This document shows, piece by piece, positions 13,329 to 21,344 of a stretch of 38,290 bases of DNA (within the stretch, counting starts at the first letter, position 1; each line of letters opens with the position of its first letter). The DNA is from a virus. The stretch is taken from positions 1 through 38,290 of IMG/VR virus record IMGVR_UViG_3300042922_000757. One strand, written 5' to 3'. Made by a program: the position numbers and the translations under genes. The notes beneath the pieces were generated by a model. That model was not told the DNA's origin, ran no database searches, and saw only the letters and a program-made list of their open reading frames with translations.

Positions 13329-14896
13329 TTTCGCTTCGGCCTTATCAACGCGAATCCCTCGACGCCCTGTACAGCTATTGGCAGTCGGGTGGCGGCAACG
13401 GGCTCCTCGTTCTACCCACTGGCGCGGGCAAGTCTTTGGTCCTCGCCTCACTGGTGAAGGAGCTGCTTGAGCAATATCCGTGGTTCAGAATCGCGGTTGT
13501 CACCCACAGCCGGGAACTGATCGTCCAGAACTTCAGCGAGATCCTGCGGATCTGGCCTAGTGCACCAGCTGGGATTTATTCAGCCGGGGTCGGCCGGCGC
13601 GACGCACGGGCAAAAGTCCTGTTCTGCGGCGTCCAGTCCGTGTTCAACAAAGCAAGCATTATTGGACCCTTCGATCTGCTGATCGTGGATGAGGCGCACC
13701 TGATCCCCAGGTCTGCCGCCACCATGTATGGGAAGTTCATCGCATCCTTGCTCGCCATGACACCCGACATGCGGATCGTTGGACTGACGGCCACGCCGTA
13801 CCGGCTCGACTCCGGCCGCCTTGATGAAGGCGACAGCTCGATGTTTGACGACATCGTCTATGAGGCGAATGTCGTTGACCTGATCGAGCAGGGGTTCTTG
13901 TCTCCGTTGATCAGTCGAGCCGGTGCCAGCCAGATTGACCTAACCGGCGTCCACACCCGGGCCGGCGATTATGTCCAGGGCGAGCTCGAAACCGCTGCGA
14001 TGAAGATCGTCAATGAGGCGGTTTCTGAGCTGGTAACGTTGGGCCAATCACGCCGCGCCTGGCTGGCGTTCTGCTCTGGTGTGGCTCACGCCGAGGCCGT
14101 CGCAGTGGCGATCCGGAGCCATGGGATCGAAGCCCAGTCGGTCGACGGCTCAATGGATAAGGCGACGAGGGATAGCCTGATCGCTCGGTTCCGTGGCGGA
14201 TCAATCCGATGCCTCACATCGGTGAACGTCCTCTCGATCGGGTTTAACGTCCCTCACGTCGACCTCGTCGCCTTAATGAGGCCGACGAAAAGCACGGGAT
14301 TATACGTCCAGCAAGTGGGGAGGGGATTCCGCACTGCGCCCGGGAAACAGGATGCACTGATCCTCGATTATGCCGGCGTTGTTCGGCGACACGGGCCCGT
14401 TGACGCTGTCGTCGGCGAGAACGGTGGTGCTGGCAAGGGCAGCAAGAAAGCGGAGGGTGAAACCGAGATCCGGGCCAAAGAATGCCCCGAGTGCCAAACG
14501 CTTGCTGCTCTTAACCAGCGTCACTGCAAGGTTTGCGACCACGAATGGAAGGTCGAGACGAAAGCGCCGCACGAGGGCAGGGCAGACGACAGCGTTGGCA
14601 TCCTCTCGACCGAGCGCGTCCCGCCCGATTCCGTCCGTGTCACCTATTACGCCGGCCTAGGCACCTACTCAGAACTGCTCGCGTTCGAATGGACGGGGAA
14701 GTGGCGCCAGAAGGCCTGCGAGTGGTGGTTGAGCCATGGGGGGTTAACCCCGTTCCCGAAGACCAGCGCAGAGGCACTGGACCGTCGCCAGGAGCTAACC
14801 CAGCCGGCCACGATTTCGGTCGCGCCGCGGCCCGGCACCAAGTACTTCGACGTGATTGGTCGAACGTTCGACAAAAGGGAGAAGGCCGTTGCCTAA
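13325..14896 (+). CDS. SF2 DEAD/DEAH-type helicase
   Basis: Protein of 523 residues. Visible motifs are RPYQRE (5-10, Q-like box), LPTGAGKS (Walker A, 30-37), VDEAH (motif II, 121-125), TATPYR (motif III, 155-160) and QQVGRGFR (motif VI, about 345). It belongs to the phage UvsW/RecQ-like SF2 group with two RecA domains. A CPECQ...CKVCDHEW four-cysteine knuckle lies near residue 395, followed by about 100 residues of unknown role. It probably unwinds replication or recombination intermediates. The ATG at 13325 overlaps the previous stop. Confidence 0.9.
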   Translation: MISLRPYQRESLDALYSYWQSGGGNGLLVLPTGAGKSLVLASLVKELLEQYPWFRIAVVTHSRELIVQNFSEILRIWPSAPAGIYSAGVGRRDARAKVLFCGVQSVFNKASIIGPFDLLIVDEAHLIPRSAATMYGKFIASLLAMTPDMRIVGLTATPYRLDSGRLDEGDSSMFDDIVYEANVVDLIEQGFLSPLISRAGASQIDLTGVHTRAGDYVQGELETAAMKIVNEAVSELVTLGQSRRAWLAFCSGVAHAEAVAVAIRSHGIEAQSVDGSMDKATRDSLIARFRGGSIRCLTSVNVLSIGFNVPHVDLVALMRPTKSTGLYVQQVGRGFRTAPGKQDALILDYAGVVRRHGPVDAVVGENGGAGKGSKKAEGETEIRAKECPECQTLAALNQRHCKVCDHEWKVETKAPHEGRADDSVGILSTERVPPDSVRVTYYAGLGTYSELLAFEWTGKWRQKACEWWLSHGGLTPFPKTSAEALDRRQELTQPATISVAPRPGTKYFDVIGRTFDKREKAVA

Positions 14897-15518
14897 CCCC
14901 TTCATCTCTCAGTCAGAACGTGACATTCGGGAAGCTACAGTCGCCCGGGCCCGGCAACTCTGGCCCGACGCCAGGATCATCCACGAACTCAATGTCGAAC
15001 ATGGTGCAGTGCGTGCCGACCTAGCCGCCGTAACTGCGACGCAATTGATCCTGTTCGAGATCAAGAGCGAGCGGGATACATTGTCCCGCCTCTCCAACCA
15101 GCTCCGCCGTTTCCAACCCGTGTGCCACGGCGTCATTGTCGCTGCCCACGAGCGGTGGTGCATCGGATCGAAGTATCCCAACTGCGACGTTCATCCGATC
15201 ATCCGGCATGCCGGTTGCGGGCACCTTTGGCAGTACCCAGAGCCGGAAGAAAAGTGGGGGCTAAGACACTGGTCCGCACCATACGCTGCTGCCCGCCCTT
15301 GGCCGCATCGCATGCTCCGCCTGCTGTGGACCGAGGAGTTGCAAGGTCTGGCAAACAAATACGGGATGAAATCCCGCCGGGTCGCCGGTCACAAGCTGGC
15401 TGATGAACTGGCGCTCCTGCTTACCGGTCAGCAGGTCGAGCAGGCCGTTTGTAGAGCATTGCGAGCCCGCCCATTTGCCGAGGCCGATCCGGCAGTGGAG
15501 GATCGCAATGCAGCATAG
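14889..15518 (+). CDS. sce7726-like PD-(D/E)XK family protein, TTG start
   Basis: Protein of about 209 residues. It matches the sce7726 pattern: an acidic helix at the start (ISQSERDIREATVARAR), ELNVEHGAVRADLAAV with the catalytic Asp, FEIKSERDTLSRLSNQL with the E-x-K, then a Gln/Tyr helix. This is a restriction-endonuclease-like fold; activity on DNA is inferred. No ATG is available. A TTG at 14889, about 4 bases after GGGAGAAGG and overlapping the helicase stop, was chosen; TTG at 14856 is the alternative. Confidence 0.72.
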   Translation: MPNPFISQSERDIREATVARARQLWPDARIIHELNVEHGAVRADLAAVTATQLILFEIKSERDTLSRLSNQLRRFQPVCHGVIVAAHERWCIGSKYPNCDVHPIIRHAGCGHLWQYPEPEEKWGLRHWSAPYAAARPWPHRMLRLLWTEELQGLANKYGMKSRRVAGHKLADELALLLTGQQVEQAVCRALRARPFAEADPAVEDRNAA

Positions 15519-15855
15519 CGACCGCATCTGCTCTGTCTGCGCCCGACCGGCCACTGGCATCGGCGTGGCGCCACGAAACACCAAGTCCGTCGCGGCCATA
15601 GCATGGCTCTGCGATGACCCCGAATGCCTTGTCATAGGACAGCGTGCCATGGGTATCAAACAACTGGAATTTAGCCGCCTCGACAGCCTGGCGACGATAG
15701 AGGCAGGGCAAGAGCTGGAGCAATATTGCCAGTCGATTGGAAAGTCGGACCTTCGCGAGCTTACCCAGCAGGAATGGGATCAAGCCCTTCGCGTTACTAT
15801 TGGCTCATACCGGGACGCTCTCCAGACCAAGCTCCGCGACGAGGCGCCATTCTGA
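15508..15855 (+). CDS. DUF6511-type Cys-rich protein
   Basis: Protein of 115 residues. ICSVCARPATGIGVAP (residues 7-22) and WLCDDPECLV supply four cysteines for a zinc site. The C-terminal IGKSDLRELTQQEWDQAL followed by IGSYRDAL fits the DUF6511 domain seen in early regions of alphaproteobacterial phages. Function is unknown. It overlaps the sce7726-like gene by 11 bases and shares a base with the primase start (TGATG). Confidence 0.75.
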   Translation: MQHSDRICSVCARPATGIGVAPRNTKSVAAIAWLCDDPECLVIGQRAMGIKQLEFSRLDSLATIEAGQELEQYCQSIGKSDLRELTQQEWDQALRVTIGSYRDALQTKLRDEAPF

Positions 15856-18161
15856 TGGCCGAGGTTGGTCAAATCGGCAACGGCCGGGTAGCGCTAGATC
15901 TCGCCGCCGCCGGATTCGCCGTGTTCCCCTGCCAAGCTGGCGGGACCAACGTCAAAAAGCCGATGCCCGGGGTGTTCTGGCGCTCCGCATCGACCAATGA
16001 TCGCGTCAAGGTCGCGGGTTGGTGGCGCAAATGGCCTGAAGCGGCGGTCGGGTTGGATCTCGCCAAGTCGGGGCTGGTCGTGATCGATGCAGATCGGCAC
16101 GACCCGGACGCTGATGGCGTGGTCGCATTTGCCGAGCTGATGAATGAGCATCAGTTCGATCCCAACACCGTGCCAGTGGTCGCGACCCCAAACCAGGGCA
16201 CGCACTTTTATTTCCGCCAGCCCGAGGGTCAATCCCTAGGCAATGGCCGCGGCGCGCTGCCCAAGGGAATCGATGTCCGGGGAGCAGGCGGGTACGTCAT
16301 CGCGCCGGGCTCCGTAATGACGGATGGGCGGCTGTACGAGGTATTTGGCCAGGTGGCAGATGCGCCGGTCATGCCAGACTGGCTCCGCGCAATTATCAGC
16401 AAGCCTGAACGGGTAGAGCGGCAACAGCCGGCGAACATGCCGCGCCACACGCCGCCGTCTGACGAGCGGATTGCGGCATATCTCGACACTGCGGTTAGCC
16501 AAGAATTAGACGCCGTCCGCTACGCGCCCCGCGGGGCGAGGAACCAACAGCTGAACATCTCGGCCATGAAGCTTGGTCAGATGGTTGGAGCAGGGTGGTT
16601 GGGCGAGGCCGAGGCAACCGCGATGCTCGAGGCAGCCGCCGCTGATCTTTCCGCCGACGACGGCATCGAGCAAACGCGCAAGACGATCCGGTCTGGGATG
16701 TCGAAGGGCAGGACCGAGCCGCGGGAGTTGCCTGAGGATCAATATGAGGTGGTCAGCCAAGAGGATTTCGAAGCTTCGGAGCGGCTGCGCAAAAGCTTTG
16801 ACAACAAGCGATCTGACACCACCCCTAAGTCCAGCATTCCCGCGGCTCTCCGCCCGGAACTAGACCTTGTCGACACCACCTCCACAGCCCCTCAGTTCGA
16901 CCTGCCCGACAATTTTCTCCACCCGCCTGGACTCGTCGGCGAGATTGCCGACTGGATCTGCTCTTGGACCGCGGAACCGATCCGGATCCACGCCATAGGG
17001 GCTGCCCTCGTCATTGTCGGCACGATCATCGGACGGAAGGTGTATTCTAAGACCAGACCATCATCGGCAGCGCTGTACATTGGTGCTATCGCGCCCAGCG
17101 GAATGGGCAAGCAACACCCCCAAGACGCCATCAGGATGGCACTGGATGAGGTGGTGGGGTCGTCATCTTTGCATTGCGGCTGGAACCTCAGCCTCCCGGC
17201 TCTAGTCATGGCGCTGCACACGAACGCCAGCAAGGTGATGGTCGCGGACGAGTTCGCCGACAAGCTGATCGGGCTCAGGAGCAAGAATGCTTCCACCTCC
17301 CAATCCGCGATCAGCGAGGGGCTCCGCTCATTATGGGGCACGAACACGGGCACCTATTCACCAGACGTGTCGCTCGCCCGCGGCGATGCCAAGATCCTGC
17401 GGCCCCACCTCAGCTTCTATGGCGCATCGACAGTGAAGGACTTTGTCCGATCGCTCGTGTCGAAGGATGTGACGAACGGGCTATTCAACCGGTTCCTCAT
17501 CTTGCCCAGGTATCAGGAAGTGGACCGTCGACCCGATCCCGATGGCATCATGTCCTTGCCGCCGGAGCTTAAGGACCGGCTGCAATGGCTCGCCGGCTGT
17601 TTGTCCCCCATGCAGCTCACCATGGCGGCCCGAGGTGATGGGTTTCCGTCGGAGCCGATATTGGTCCCGTTCGACAAGGCAGCAGACGAGCTGAATGCTG
17701 CGAACCAACGTCATCAGCGGGCCATGCTGTTGGCCAGTGAGAACGACGACGCCCTGATGCTCTGGGGTCGGTTCGCCGAGCAGTGCAAGCGGGTGGCCAT
17801 GATCGTGGCTGTTGGCCGGAGCCCGGGTGACCCGGGAAGCGTCTCAATCACTGCCCCCGACATGGTATGGGCAACCGATTTGGTTCGTTACAGCATCGAG
17901 CAGTTCATCGGCATGGTGCGCCGGGACATGGTGGAGAGTTGGGTTCAGGCGCAGCACAAGCTGGTGCTGGGGATTGTTCGCCAGGCGGGGACGATTTCGA
18001 GGAACGAGTTGGTCCGCCAGGTCCATGGCCGGATCCAGAAGCGCCCGCTCGAGGACATCATCCATCAGCTGGTCGAGGGTCAAAATATTGAAGGTCTGAA
18101 AGTCGATCCAGGTGCCAAAGGTGGCAGGCCGAAAGAGGTGTTTAGATGGGTGCAGGACTGA
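15855..18161 (+). CDS. Primase-polymerase / DUF3987 replication protein
   Basis: Protein of 768 residues. The N-terminal prim-pol domain shows VVIDADRHD (D78, D80), a TPNQGTHFYF strand (H117) and GIDVRGAGGYVIAPGS (R142), the archaeo-eukaryotic-like bifunctional primase-polymerase pattern. A PriCT-like linker lies around residues 210-290. From about residue 350 the DUF3987 region contains IAPSGMGKQHP (near 412-422), a P-loop in which the usual Ser/Thr after Lys is Gln. It is probably the main replication initiation protein, priming and perhaps unwinding phage DNA. It shares a base with the preceding stop and lies upstream of the GTTTCGTCAC array. Confidence 0.88.
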   Translation: MAEVGQIGNGRVALDLAAAGFAVFPCQAGGTNVKKPMPGVFWRSASTNDRVKVAGWWRKWPEAAVGLDLAKSGLVVIDADRHDPDADGVVAFAELMNEHQFDPNTVPVVATPNQGTHFYFRQPEGQSLGNGRGALPKGIDVRGAGGYVIAPGSVMTDGRLYEVFGQVADAPVMPDWLRAIISKPERVERQQPANMPRHTPPSDERIAAYLDTAVSQELDAVRYAPRGARNQQLNISAMKLGQMVGAGWLGEAEATAMLEAAAADLSADDGIEQTRKTIRSGMSKGRTEPRELPEDQYEVVSQEDFEASERLRKSFDNKRSDTTPKSSIPAALRPELDLVDTTSTAPQFDLPDNFLHPPGLVGEIADWICSWTAEPIRIHAIGAALVIVGTIIGRKVYSKTRPSSAALYIGAIAPSGMGKQHPQDAIRMALDEVVGSSSLHCGWNLSLPALVMALHTNASKVMVADEFADKLIGLRSKNASTSQSAISEGLRSLWGTNTGTYSPDVSLARGDAKILRPHLSFYGASTVKDFVRSLVSKDVTNGLFNRFLILPRYQEVDRRPDPDGIMSLPPELKDRLQWLAGCLSPMQLTMAARGDGFPSEPILVPFDKAADELNAANQRHQRAMLLASENDDALMLWGRFAEQCKRVAMIVAVGRSPGDPGSVSITAPDMVWATDLVRYSIEQFIGMVRRDMVESWVQAQHKLVLGIVRQAGTISRNELVRQVHGRIQKRPLEDIIHQLVEGQNIEGLKVDPGAKGGRPKEVFRWVQD

Positions 18162-18210
18162 CAAGGTAAAACTCAGAGAATCGCGTTACCACCGATGGTG
18201 GAGGTTCGTG

Positions 18211-19029
18211 ATGCTCAGAATTTCTCTCCCTTACCTGATTGAATTTGCCGCAGCACTTGACCGTATCGATCGCGTAACTGCGGGACGTACGGTAGGCGAT
18301 GCATATGGATACCTTTTTACCGCCAAGTCACAGATTGATCAGCTCTTTGGAGCTAGCCTGTATGCGCCGGCCATGCGGAGTTCGAGGCAACTAGCAATAG
18401 CTTTACACGGTTCTCTCGATGCCCTTCTACAGAAGGGCGCCAGTGCAAATGTCGAAGCGTGGGAGCAATGGTCTTTGATCTCAAATCGAGACCAGTTTCG
18501 CACCGCTTTCTTTGCTGAACTGGGAGTAATGCCTTCCTTCTTCGTCAGCCAAAAAGGCGGGTTCGACACCCAGATGCTGCTGGACAGTGGGTGGTCATTG
18601 TTCCCTGCCGATCTTACTGCCAAGGTTCCAGAAACTCTTGCCGACGTCGGGCAGGCGGGAAGAGCCTTGGCGTTCGACATGGCTACGGCGAGTGGTTTCC
18701 ACGTTTTTAGGGTCCTGGAGGCGGTTTTACGTCGCTACTATGCTGTTGTTGCAGGCGGCAAAGCAGCTCCGAAGGTTCGCTCGCTTGGTACCTATATTGC
18801 CGCTCTCAAGACGTGCGAAAACCAAAACCTAATGGTCTTGGCAGTGCTGCAACAAATCAAAGACCTGCACCGGAACCCACTTATCCACCCTGAGGTGATG
18901 TTAACAACCGATCAGGCGGTTTCATTGTTTGGTGTGGTCCGCAGTGCAATAGAGGCGATGCTGGTGTCGTTGCCGGTAGTTAGCCCTGAACAAGGCACTT
19001 CAGACATAGCAGCGATGTTCAATGTGTAG
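18211..19029 (+). CDS. HEPN-like protein with R-x4-H motif
   Basis: Protein of 272 residues from the ATG at 18211, with GGAGG 6 bases upstream. All-helical. The C-terminal part has RALAFDMATASGFHVFRVLE (151-170) and then IKDLHRNPLIHPEV (216-229). RNPLIH (R221, N222, H226) fits the HEPN motif R-polar-x3-H, which is the RNase active site in many toxins and abortive-infection proteins. Third positions are richer in A and T than in the replication genes, and a 49-base gap separates it from them, so it looks acquired separately. A defence or superinfection-exclusion role is inference; it could also be a non-catalytic HEPN. Confidence 0.65.
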   Translation: MLRISLPYLIEFAAALDRIDRVTAGRTVGDAYGYLFTAKSQIDQLFGASLYAPAMRSSRQLAIALHGSLDALLQKGASANVEAWEQWSLISNRDQFRTAFFAELGVMPSFFVSQKGGFDTQMLLDSGWSLFPADLTAKVPETLADVGQAGRALAFDMATASGFHVFRVLEAVLRRYYAVVAGGKAAPKVRSLGTYIAALKTCENQNLMVLAVLQQIKDLHRNPLIHPEVMLTTDQAVSLFGVVRSAIEAMLVSLPVVSPEQGTSDIAAMFNV

Positions 19030-19280
19030 GTTTCGTCACCAAAGCTACGTGATGAAAGGGGTTTCGTCACGGTGACGAAACCGGAAAAACATCGAAAGCA
19101 GGGGGTTTCGTCACGTTTCGTCACGTGTTTCGTCACGTCTGTTTGGTGACGAAACCTCCGCCCTGTTATATAACAAAAACAATGTCTTATCGCATATAGG
19201 TAGGTTTCATCACTTTCATCACTAGGGAGGTTCTCATCTGAGCTCTTTAGGGCTCTGATGATTGATGGCGGTGACGAAAC
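19030..19280. repeat. GTTTCGTCAC iteron-like array with AT-rich tract
   Basis: GTTTCGTCAC or its complement occurs exactly at 19030-19039, 19061-19070, 19072-19081 (inverted), 19105-19114, 19115-19124, 19127-19136, 19146-19155 (inverted) and 19271-19280 (inverted). Variants with CAT in place of CGT lie at 19049-19057 (inverted), 19204-19213 and 19214-19222. Copies 19061-19081 form a palindrome around one base. An AT-rich tract (about 19165-19199) sits inside the array. Position next to the primase gene suggests a phage replication origin; binding sites for a late regulator are the alternative. No gene is seen in 19030-19373. Confidence 0.75.
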
Positions 19281-19294
19281 TACGAAACCTCCAT

Positions 19295-19310
19295 TTGACC
19301 CCAATTCCCC
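19295..19310. repeat. TGACCCCAATTC element, copy 1
   Basis: TTGACCCCAATTCCCC, upstream of the NusG-like gene. The same 15-base core TGACCCCAATTCCCC recurs after that gene. It begins with a -35-like TTGACC, but no good -10 follows this copy. It may be a recognition or boxA-like site for the phage antiterminator, or a promoter relic. Confidence 0.5.
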
Positions 19311-19373
19311 CATTGGGCATTCCTGTCTCGCCCGACTGCTTTGGCCGGCTCCCTGCCCATAGGAGCCGAGCAC

Positions 19374-19949
19374 TTGTCGAAACTTGTACCAGCCACCCAA
19401 AGCCGGTGGTTCGTCGTCCGCACCAATCCGAATTGCGAGGTGAGGGCGTCAACGTCGTTATCCCGTGCCGGCTATGGCGTTTACGTCCCGATGCTGAAAC
19501 GGGAACGGCAGGAACGCCGGTCCAAGAAGTGGGTTGAGACCACCAGGCCATTGATGACTGGATATCTGTTCGTCCAGATGCCCTATGGCCCGCTGGATTG
19601 GTGGACGTTGCGCCGGTGTGATGGTGTTCGTGGTGTGCTGGGCACAACCGATCGCCAGGGTGAGCAGTCGCCTTTCCCGGTCCCGAGCCGATTGGTTGAA
19701 CGCATCATGGCGGCCCAACTGAACCTGCAGTTCGATGATACGCGGGAGGCGCGAAGCAGACGAGGGGAGCAAGCAGTCAACATTTACCAACCAGGTGCGG
19801 CCGTGCTGGTAACGAAGGGGCCGTTTACGTCATTTCCCGCCGAGGTCCAGGCCGTCCGCCCCAACGGCACGGTTGAGGCATTGATCAGCCTGTTCGGCCG
19901 CTTGACCGTGATGGAGCTGGCGCCGGATCAACTTGAGTTGGCGGCGTAG
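19374..19949 (+). CDS. Phage NusG/RfaH-like antitermination factor
   Basis: Protein of 191 residues. The NGN domain opens RWFVVRTNPNCEVRASTSL (11-29), continues GYGVYVPMLKRERQ and ends RPLMTGYLFVQMP. A linker leads to a KOW domain, YQPGAAVLVTKGPFTSFPAEV and onwards. NusG paralogues bind RNA polymerase and suppress pausing or termination. A TTG start at 19374 follows AGGAG by 8 bases; no better ATG exists. Placed between the replication block and the terminase genes, it is a good candidate for the late-gene activator. Confidence 0.82.
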   Translation: MSKLVPATQSRWFVVRTNPNCEVRASTSLSRAGYGVYVPMLKRERQERRSKKWVETTRPLMTGYLFVQMPYGPLDWWTLRRCDGVRGVLGTTDRQGEQSPFPVPSRLVERIMAAQLNLQFDDTREARSRRGEQAVNIYQPGAAVLVTKGPFTSFPAEVQAVRPNGTVEALISLFGRLTVMELAPDQLELAA

Positions 19950-20693: not shown

Positions 20694-21344
20694 CTATTCA
20701 CTGGCCTTTTCTGCGGCCTCAATGCCTCTGTTGATTTTGGCTGTGAGCACGAAGAGGAAGGAGCCTAGTGCCTCCGCGAATTCAACCGATTGCTGTGCTT
20801 CATCAGGAGACACGTGAGGTTTGTCTTTGTCAGCATGGCGGGGGCGATTTGAGCCAAGCCGGACAGAATGCGCCCAGTCTGCCATGCCTTGAGTTAGGAC
20901 ATTATCTTTGAGCGCCAAGTCGATCCGGTCATAGAGGTTGCCCTTCTCGTAACCTTTAGCCTTGAGCATTCCATCCACCGCACTGCCCGCCATGACTGCG
21001 GAAGCATCGGGTGCGTGAAGTGTCTCATAAGCTTGCTGAAGAAAGGTGCGTGCGGGCTCTGGAATGTCTTCATGGGCAGACTTGGCCGGCGGGAATATTT
21101 CCGCAGCCTCATTTCCCATGTAGGCACCATATCCCTTCGCGGTAACAGCCGATCCGCAGGTGGCGCATAGATAGCATGCCCATGCGAGTGAAGGGCCACC
21201 ATCTGTACGCGGACTACCTCGATTACCTTCCGTTGCCCAGACGACGGTGAGGCGCGGTGATGCAACCGAGCAGTGCGGGCATCTTCGAACGTCAGTTAAT
21301 GTGTTGCCCATTGTTGGCACCGCGAATCCCCCTCCGTCCTTCAT
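20694..21344 (-). CDS. DUF4145 (HEPN-like) protein with zinc ribbon
   Basis: Protein of 216 residues. An N-terminal zinc ribbon (RCPHCSV, then CYLCATCGS) is followed by a helical domain from about residue 95: FLQQAYETLHAPDASAVMAG, GYEKGNLYDRIDLALKDNVL and VRLGSNRPRHADKD. The last block corresponds to the conserved Arg-x-x-GN-x-x-x-H region of DUF4145, a HEPN-superfamily domain found in restriction and other defence proteins. It is oriented against the late genes, so it is probably expressed in the lysogen. The start at 21344 lacks a clear ribosome site; 21311 is an alternative. Confidence 0.75.
   Translation of the reverse strand: MKDGGGFAVPTMGNTLTDVRRCPHCSVASPRLTVVWATEGNRGSPRTDGGPSLAWACYLCATCGSAVTAKGYGAYMGNEAAEIFPPAKSAHEDIPEPARTFLQQAYETLHAPDASAVMAGSAVDGMLKAKGYEKGNLYDRIDLALKDNVLTQGMADWAHSVRLGSNRPRHADKDKPHVSPDEAQQSVEFAEALGSFLFVLTAKINRGIEAAEKASE

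Follow-up and report, generated by a model that had tools for sequence, protein, structure and literature searches.

What is the function of the dense cluster of short repeats at positions 19030-19280 of the viral record IMGVR_UViG_3300042922_000757? We analyzed this record over its full length of 38,290 bases, hereafter the window. It represents a tailed prophage encoding an integrase, an S24 repressor, RusA, a Sak4-like protein, a Cas4-domain exonuclease, a helicase, a PrimPol-DUF3987 protein and a NusG-like protein, and it carries structural genes for terminase, portal, major head, connector and tail. The left edge (30-830), outside the integrase, encodes a Hint-domain protein identified by inspection (CFLPGTRIAT...), and is probably host flank. 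The gene directly upstream of the replication module (14856-15518) matches the PADLOC model cll (E 2e-12, residues 21-101) and phrog_984.

A scan of the whole record detected eight exact copies of the word GTTTCGTCAC and three variants of the CATCAC type, all of them clustered at 19030-19280. Five exact copies lie on the plus strand (19030, 19061, 19105, 19115 and 19127) and three on the minus strand (19072, 19146 and 19271); the variants are CTTTCATCAC at 19049 (-) and 19213 (+), and GTTTCATCAC at 19204 (+). These counts and the presence of both orientations agree with an earlier note on this DNA, and the 21-base palindrome reported there, GTTTCGTCACgGTGACGAAAC, is located at 19061-19081. The note had seen no copies elsewhere, and indeed the rest of the 38,290-base record contains no exact copy, the chance expectation in 38 kb being ∼0.07. 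The reversed word, used as a control, has no match in the record. A literature search of openly licensed papers returned no phage-origin paper among the matches listed for the word; earlier descriptions may exist. Elsewhere in public DNA, several matches to the word pattern are tandem repeats within coding sequence, which raises the question of whether the array is a product of chance or simple tandem repetition. We give this practically no credence: it is refuted by the two orientations, the irregular spacing, the intergenic location and the conservation of slots in relatives.

The array begins at the base immediately after the stop codon of the open reading frame at 18205-19029. Its left iteron set (19030-19155) comprises seven copies of GTTTCGTCAC and the CTTTCATCAC variant at 19049 (-). 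Next comes an AT-rich tract at about 19163-19203, a candidate unwinding element. The earlier note had described such a tract as enclosed by the array; in windows of 30, 40, 50 and 60 bp alike, its GC content of 0.23-0.30 is the minimum for the record. On its other side are an overlapping tandem iteron pair, GTTTCATCACTTTCATCAC (19204-19222, +; slots B and C), a conserved box, tAGGGAGGTTCTCAT (19222-19237), and a distal inverted iteron pair (19271-19288, -), in which GTGACGAAAC is followed by a degenerate copy, TACGAAAC. This tail-end copy, at 19281-19288, pairs with the one at 19271 and had been overlooked in the earlier note. A possible hairpin between the right-hand slots, TCATCTGAGCTC-TTTAGGGCTCTGATGA (19234-19261), reaches a z of -4.2 in the window (range -3.0 to -4.2) but is not significant in four relatives, and was dropped.

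Comparison with related phages shows which features of the array are conserved. Six aligned origins have a common slot order: the left set, the AT tract, whose position is kept in all six, the overlapping tandem pair, the AGGGAGGTTCTCAT box, with 79% mean pairwise identity, and the distal inverted pair. The counterparts of slots B and C are GTTATTCCGGTTATTCAGG in relative L204 and GTTTTTCAGGTTTTTCAGG in L207, and the distal slot in the relatives is a clear tandem pair corresponding to the 19271 copy and TACGAAAC. Between origins the word is exchanged in all slots at once, while the slots remain unchanged. In the four core slots, the mean mismatch is 0.72 of 7 variable bases within an origin versus 3.47 of 7 for the same slot between origins, and none of 20,000 within-slot label permutations of the six origins was as coherent as the observed words. 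Replacement of the word in concert within fixed slots is the pattern expected from selection by a cognate DNA-binding protein.

The gene encoding the PrimPol-DUF3987 protein, which we propose as initiator, primase and helicase, is located at 15852-18161 on the plus strand (Pfam PF09250, E 8e-34, and PF13148, E 1.5e-10). The earlier note placed the array after this gene. The array does lie 3' of it, but not directly, as the reading frame at 18205-19029 (+) intervenes. This frame belongs to phrog_32483, a family without function, and contains an RNPLIH HEPN-like motif; it has no PADLOC match, and no homologue was found in L203, L206 or L207. Its absence from close relatives suggests that it is probably inserted cargo. 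In L204, L283 and L205 the array is positioned directly 3' of the primase gene, with no intervening frame. Another likely cargo gene lies between the NusG-like and terminase genes in the reverse orientation (20694-21344, -), and encodes a DUF4145 (HEPN-type) protein.

Downstream of the array is the NusG-like antitermination gene (19341-19949, +; PF02357, E 2e-18), which also follows the array in six relatives (L204, L206, L207, L283, L205 and L284). This neighborhood favors the alternative raised in the earlier note, an operator array for the late switch, which would regulate the NusG-like gene together with the downstream late operon. The association holds for the clade of the window, L205 and L284, but in other lineages the array, still 3' of PrimPol, is followed by other genes, identified by inspection: methyltransferase-like in L217, RuvC-like in L316 and the terminase small subunit in L208. 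A search for sigma-70-like promoters at 18000-19600 found none, and the two-sided layout about the AT tract is of the origin type. We consider the operator explanation quite improbable; origin and operator roles together are possible.

The position of arrays relative to PrimPol genes was surveyed in 47 viral loci, an array being defined as at least five copies of a repeated word. Such an array occupied the first 400 bp 3' of the gene at 23 of 45 loci. Further out, at +400 to +1600, one was present in 8 of 44; the 1,600 bp preceding the gene had one in 2 of 45, and the gene itself in none of the 47. Shuffled regions contained 2-4 copies at most. Close PrimPol relatives carry arrays in the same place with other words: GTTACGTCGG in L203, GTTATTCAGG in L204, GTTTCGTCGG in L206 and L283, and GTTTTTCAGG in L207. 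Iteron-like arrays in both orientations are also found at centromeres, so a plasmid-like prophage might use such an array for partition or incompatibility. That the array accompanies the primase gene across lineages argues against this, as do the presence of an integrase and the lack of a ParA/ParB-type gene among the window proteins scanned, and we regard a partition site as very improbable.

In a paired-copy scan of viral contigs for GTTTCGTCAC, arrays adjoin PrimPol genes in L021 (the same contig as L205), L074/L212 and L029/L217, whose products are 44%, 27% and 23% identical to the PrimPol of the window, respectively. When the word was instead paired with the reversed word as a mock control, the scan yielded no matches. 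An array of GTTTCGTCAC is also found in L080 (4077-4375), just 3' of a gene for an unrelated primase-helicase of the D5 type (D5_N/Pox_D5). Arrays of the same or related words in L054, L052 and L062 have no recognized initiator nearby. The matches in L041, L058, L063, L064 and L082 were rejected as coding or simple tandem repeats.

The structural models and profile searches point to the PrimPol-DUF3987 protein as a possible reader of the array. Modeled at full length (pLDDT 78.9), the protein matches MCM helicases with an E-value of 1e-6, and the primase-polymerases NrS-1 and pRN1 with 1e-4. The model of the C-terminal 170 residues (pLDDT 90.6) ends in a canonical winged helix, residues 702-769 (17955-18158, +), in which R717 and N718 open helix 2; we propose this domain as the iteron binder. 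A profile search matched it to the Mlc winged helix (E 0.0024), and its fold is similar to those of ROK and PadR regulators, TFE and origin-bound Cdc6/Orc1, in each case with a weak E-value because the domain is short. The enzyme thus models as a PrimPol joined to an MCM-like AAA+ helicase and a C-terminal winged helix, and on these domain matches it looks like a primase, a helicase and a predicted origin reader in one chain.

The word varies together with the winged helix. Among 26 non-redundant protein-array pairs, the more alike the winged helices, the more alike the words once the remainder of the enzyme is accounted for (partial r 0.34, reached in 0 of 5,000 permutations, in Mantel tests that shared descent can inflate), and word similarity shows no correlation with that remainder once the winged helix is accounted for (r -0.02, p 0.64). 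Among 60-residue segments sliding over residues 358-769 (n=19), the last two, which cover the winged helix, rank highest at 0.25 and 0.33, and all others stay at or below 0.20. Of the ten single columns that score best, seven belong to this domain: helix 2 contributes R717 and N718, helix 3 V741, and the wing G757, G758, R759 and P760. Helix-2 'KS[DE]' pairs with TTCA words and 'RN' with CGTC words. Across 40 proteins, KS at 717-718 occurs with TTCA words in 19 of 20, and the 20 proteins without KS all lack TTCA. An apparent exception, L361, was a false array call: the repeat lies 1.3 kb away, and ATTCA/TGAAT copies are present right after the gene. In the core tree, KS changed three times independently on supported branches, the word changing along each time, which is too small a number for significance (sign test p 0.25). 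The window and its closest relative, L204, are 87% identical in the core, yet differ in both the word and helix 2. The relation between residues and word is not one to one, because GTTTCGTCAC is found as well next to PrimPols that carry other residues in helix 2 (L212 and L217) and next to the D5-type primase of L080.

This recurrence of identical words beside distantly related or unrelated primases, together with the lack of an array at some PrimPol relatives, would fit an origin in which a separate protein, of phage or host, binds the iterons and simply recruits PrimPol or lets it be recruited. We find this unlikely. No other gene constantly adjoins the arrays, the word follows the winged helix of PrimPol more closely than it follows the remainder of the protein, and in the closest pair the word and helix 2 differ together. 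The recurrence itself partly reflects the fact that these loci were sought by that word. The small HTH proteins suggested in the earlier note as binders are not needed.

The position of the array, its AT tract, the conserved slots and the co-variation with the PrimPol winged helix all support the earlier proposal of a replication origin bound by a phage initiator. We conclude from these sequence comparisons that the array is probably the replication origin of a temperate tailed phage, read by the winged helix of its own PrimPol-DUF3987. The C-terminal winged helix would bind the iterons on both sides of the AT tract, and the protein bound in the two sets would melt the tract, load itself there as a helicase ring and prime DNA synthesis.

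Origins of the lambda type likewise combine iterons, an AT tract and a phage initiator, the iterons lying inside the initiator gene O; lambda O has no primase or helicase domain. The candidate origin of the window shares the iterons, the AT tract and a proposed phage initiator, but arrays lie inside the PrimPol gene in none of the 47 loci. It also differs from DnaA-dependent iteron plasmid origins, in that no DnaA box (TTWTNCACA) is found beside the iterons or anywhere else in the record. The closest layout is that of PICI/SaPI satellites, in which the initiator gene precedes AT-rich DNA bordered by two iteron sets, and the C-terminal domain of Rep is reported to recognize the iterons (PMC6092414, PMC7581432). 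The window too has two iteron sets flanking an AT-rich region 3' of the initiator gene, differing by the one intervening frame, and its co-variation data suggest that iteron specificity may reside in the C-terminal domain of the initiator. The initiator of the window differs in being a PrimPol-DUF3987 (MCM-like) fusion, and the element is not a PICI, because it carries its own terminase, portal, head, connector and tail genes. A layout known from satellite rep-ori regions is thus found in a full tailed prophage, and is widespread. In SCCmec, the D5-type helicase Cch2 binds DNA with repeats that lies immediately 3' of the gene encoding it (PMC7581432). The window has the same succession of helicase gene and repeats, and may share the binding; Cch2 belongs to another helicase family, its sequence has only three iterons, and the primase is a separate protein pair. 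PrimPols with a C-terminal winged helix, as in the enzyme of the window, are known among the PolpTN2-type primases of archaeal plasmids, where the winged helix was proposed to recognize the origin; the same paper, in which DUF3987 is a predicted helicase, does not mention iterons and does not trace origin recognition to a DNA array (PMC5862659).

Tentatively, and with somewhat less than even confidence, we extend this reading to a large group of tailed phages, in which a one-protein replicator (PrimPol, MCM-like helicase and winged helix) would read an iteron origin beside its own gene, with a specificity that turns over fast. If so, all iterons and a few winged-helix residues change in concert (helix-2 RN to KS, CGTC to TTCA), close relatives become independent replicons through this turnover, and origin specificity could be deduced from sequence. 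Inspecting the DNA 3' of PrimPol-DUF3987 would be a simple origin-finding rule for many uncharacterized phages, and an origin layout thought peculiar to phage satellites would extend to full phages. The natural matched pairs of initiator and origin word would provide a testbed for DNA-recognition rules and origin incompatibility.

At the sensitivity used, roughly half of the distant PrimPol loci lack an array. None was found downstream of PrimPol in Vibrio phages H188 and 1.005.O, Pseudoalteromonas phages H40/1 and C7 and Serratia phage BUCT805, or in a near-identical Rhizobiales group (helix 2 'SQETL', e.g. L351-L359). In Pseudoalteromonas phage C7 (L379), CTTTTTGCAC is present six times in the stretch about 176-470 bases upstream of the PrimPol gene, so the origin there may be on the other side of PrimPol. 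In a genome-collection scan for GTTTCGTCAC, the clusters inspected among the matches listed were mostly short tandem repeats; two look non-coding, at 2002-2072 of L119, in front of an unclassified gene of a Ghiorsea MAG, and at 1408-1735 of L124, from a Selenomonadaceae MAG. Six distant PrimPol loci (L229, L234, L238, L247, L249 and L258) have common words of the CTCCC/CCTC type, e.g. CGAGTCTCCC and CAACCTCCCA, which suggests further word families.
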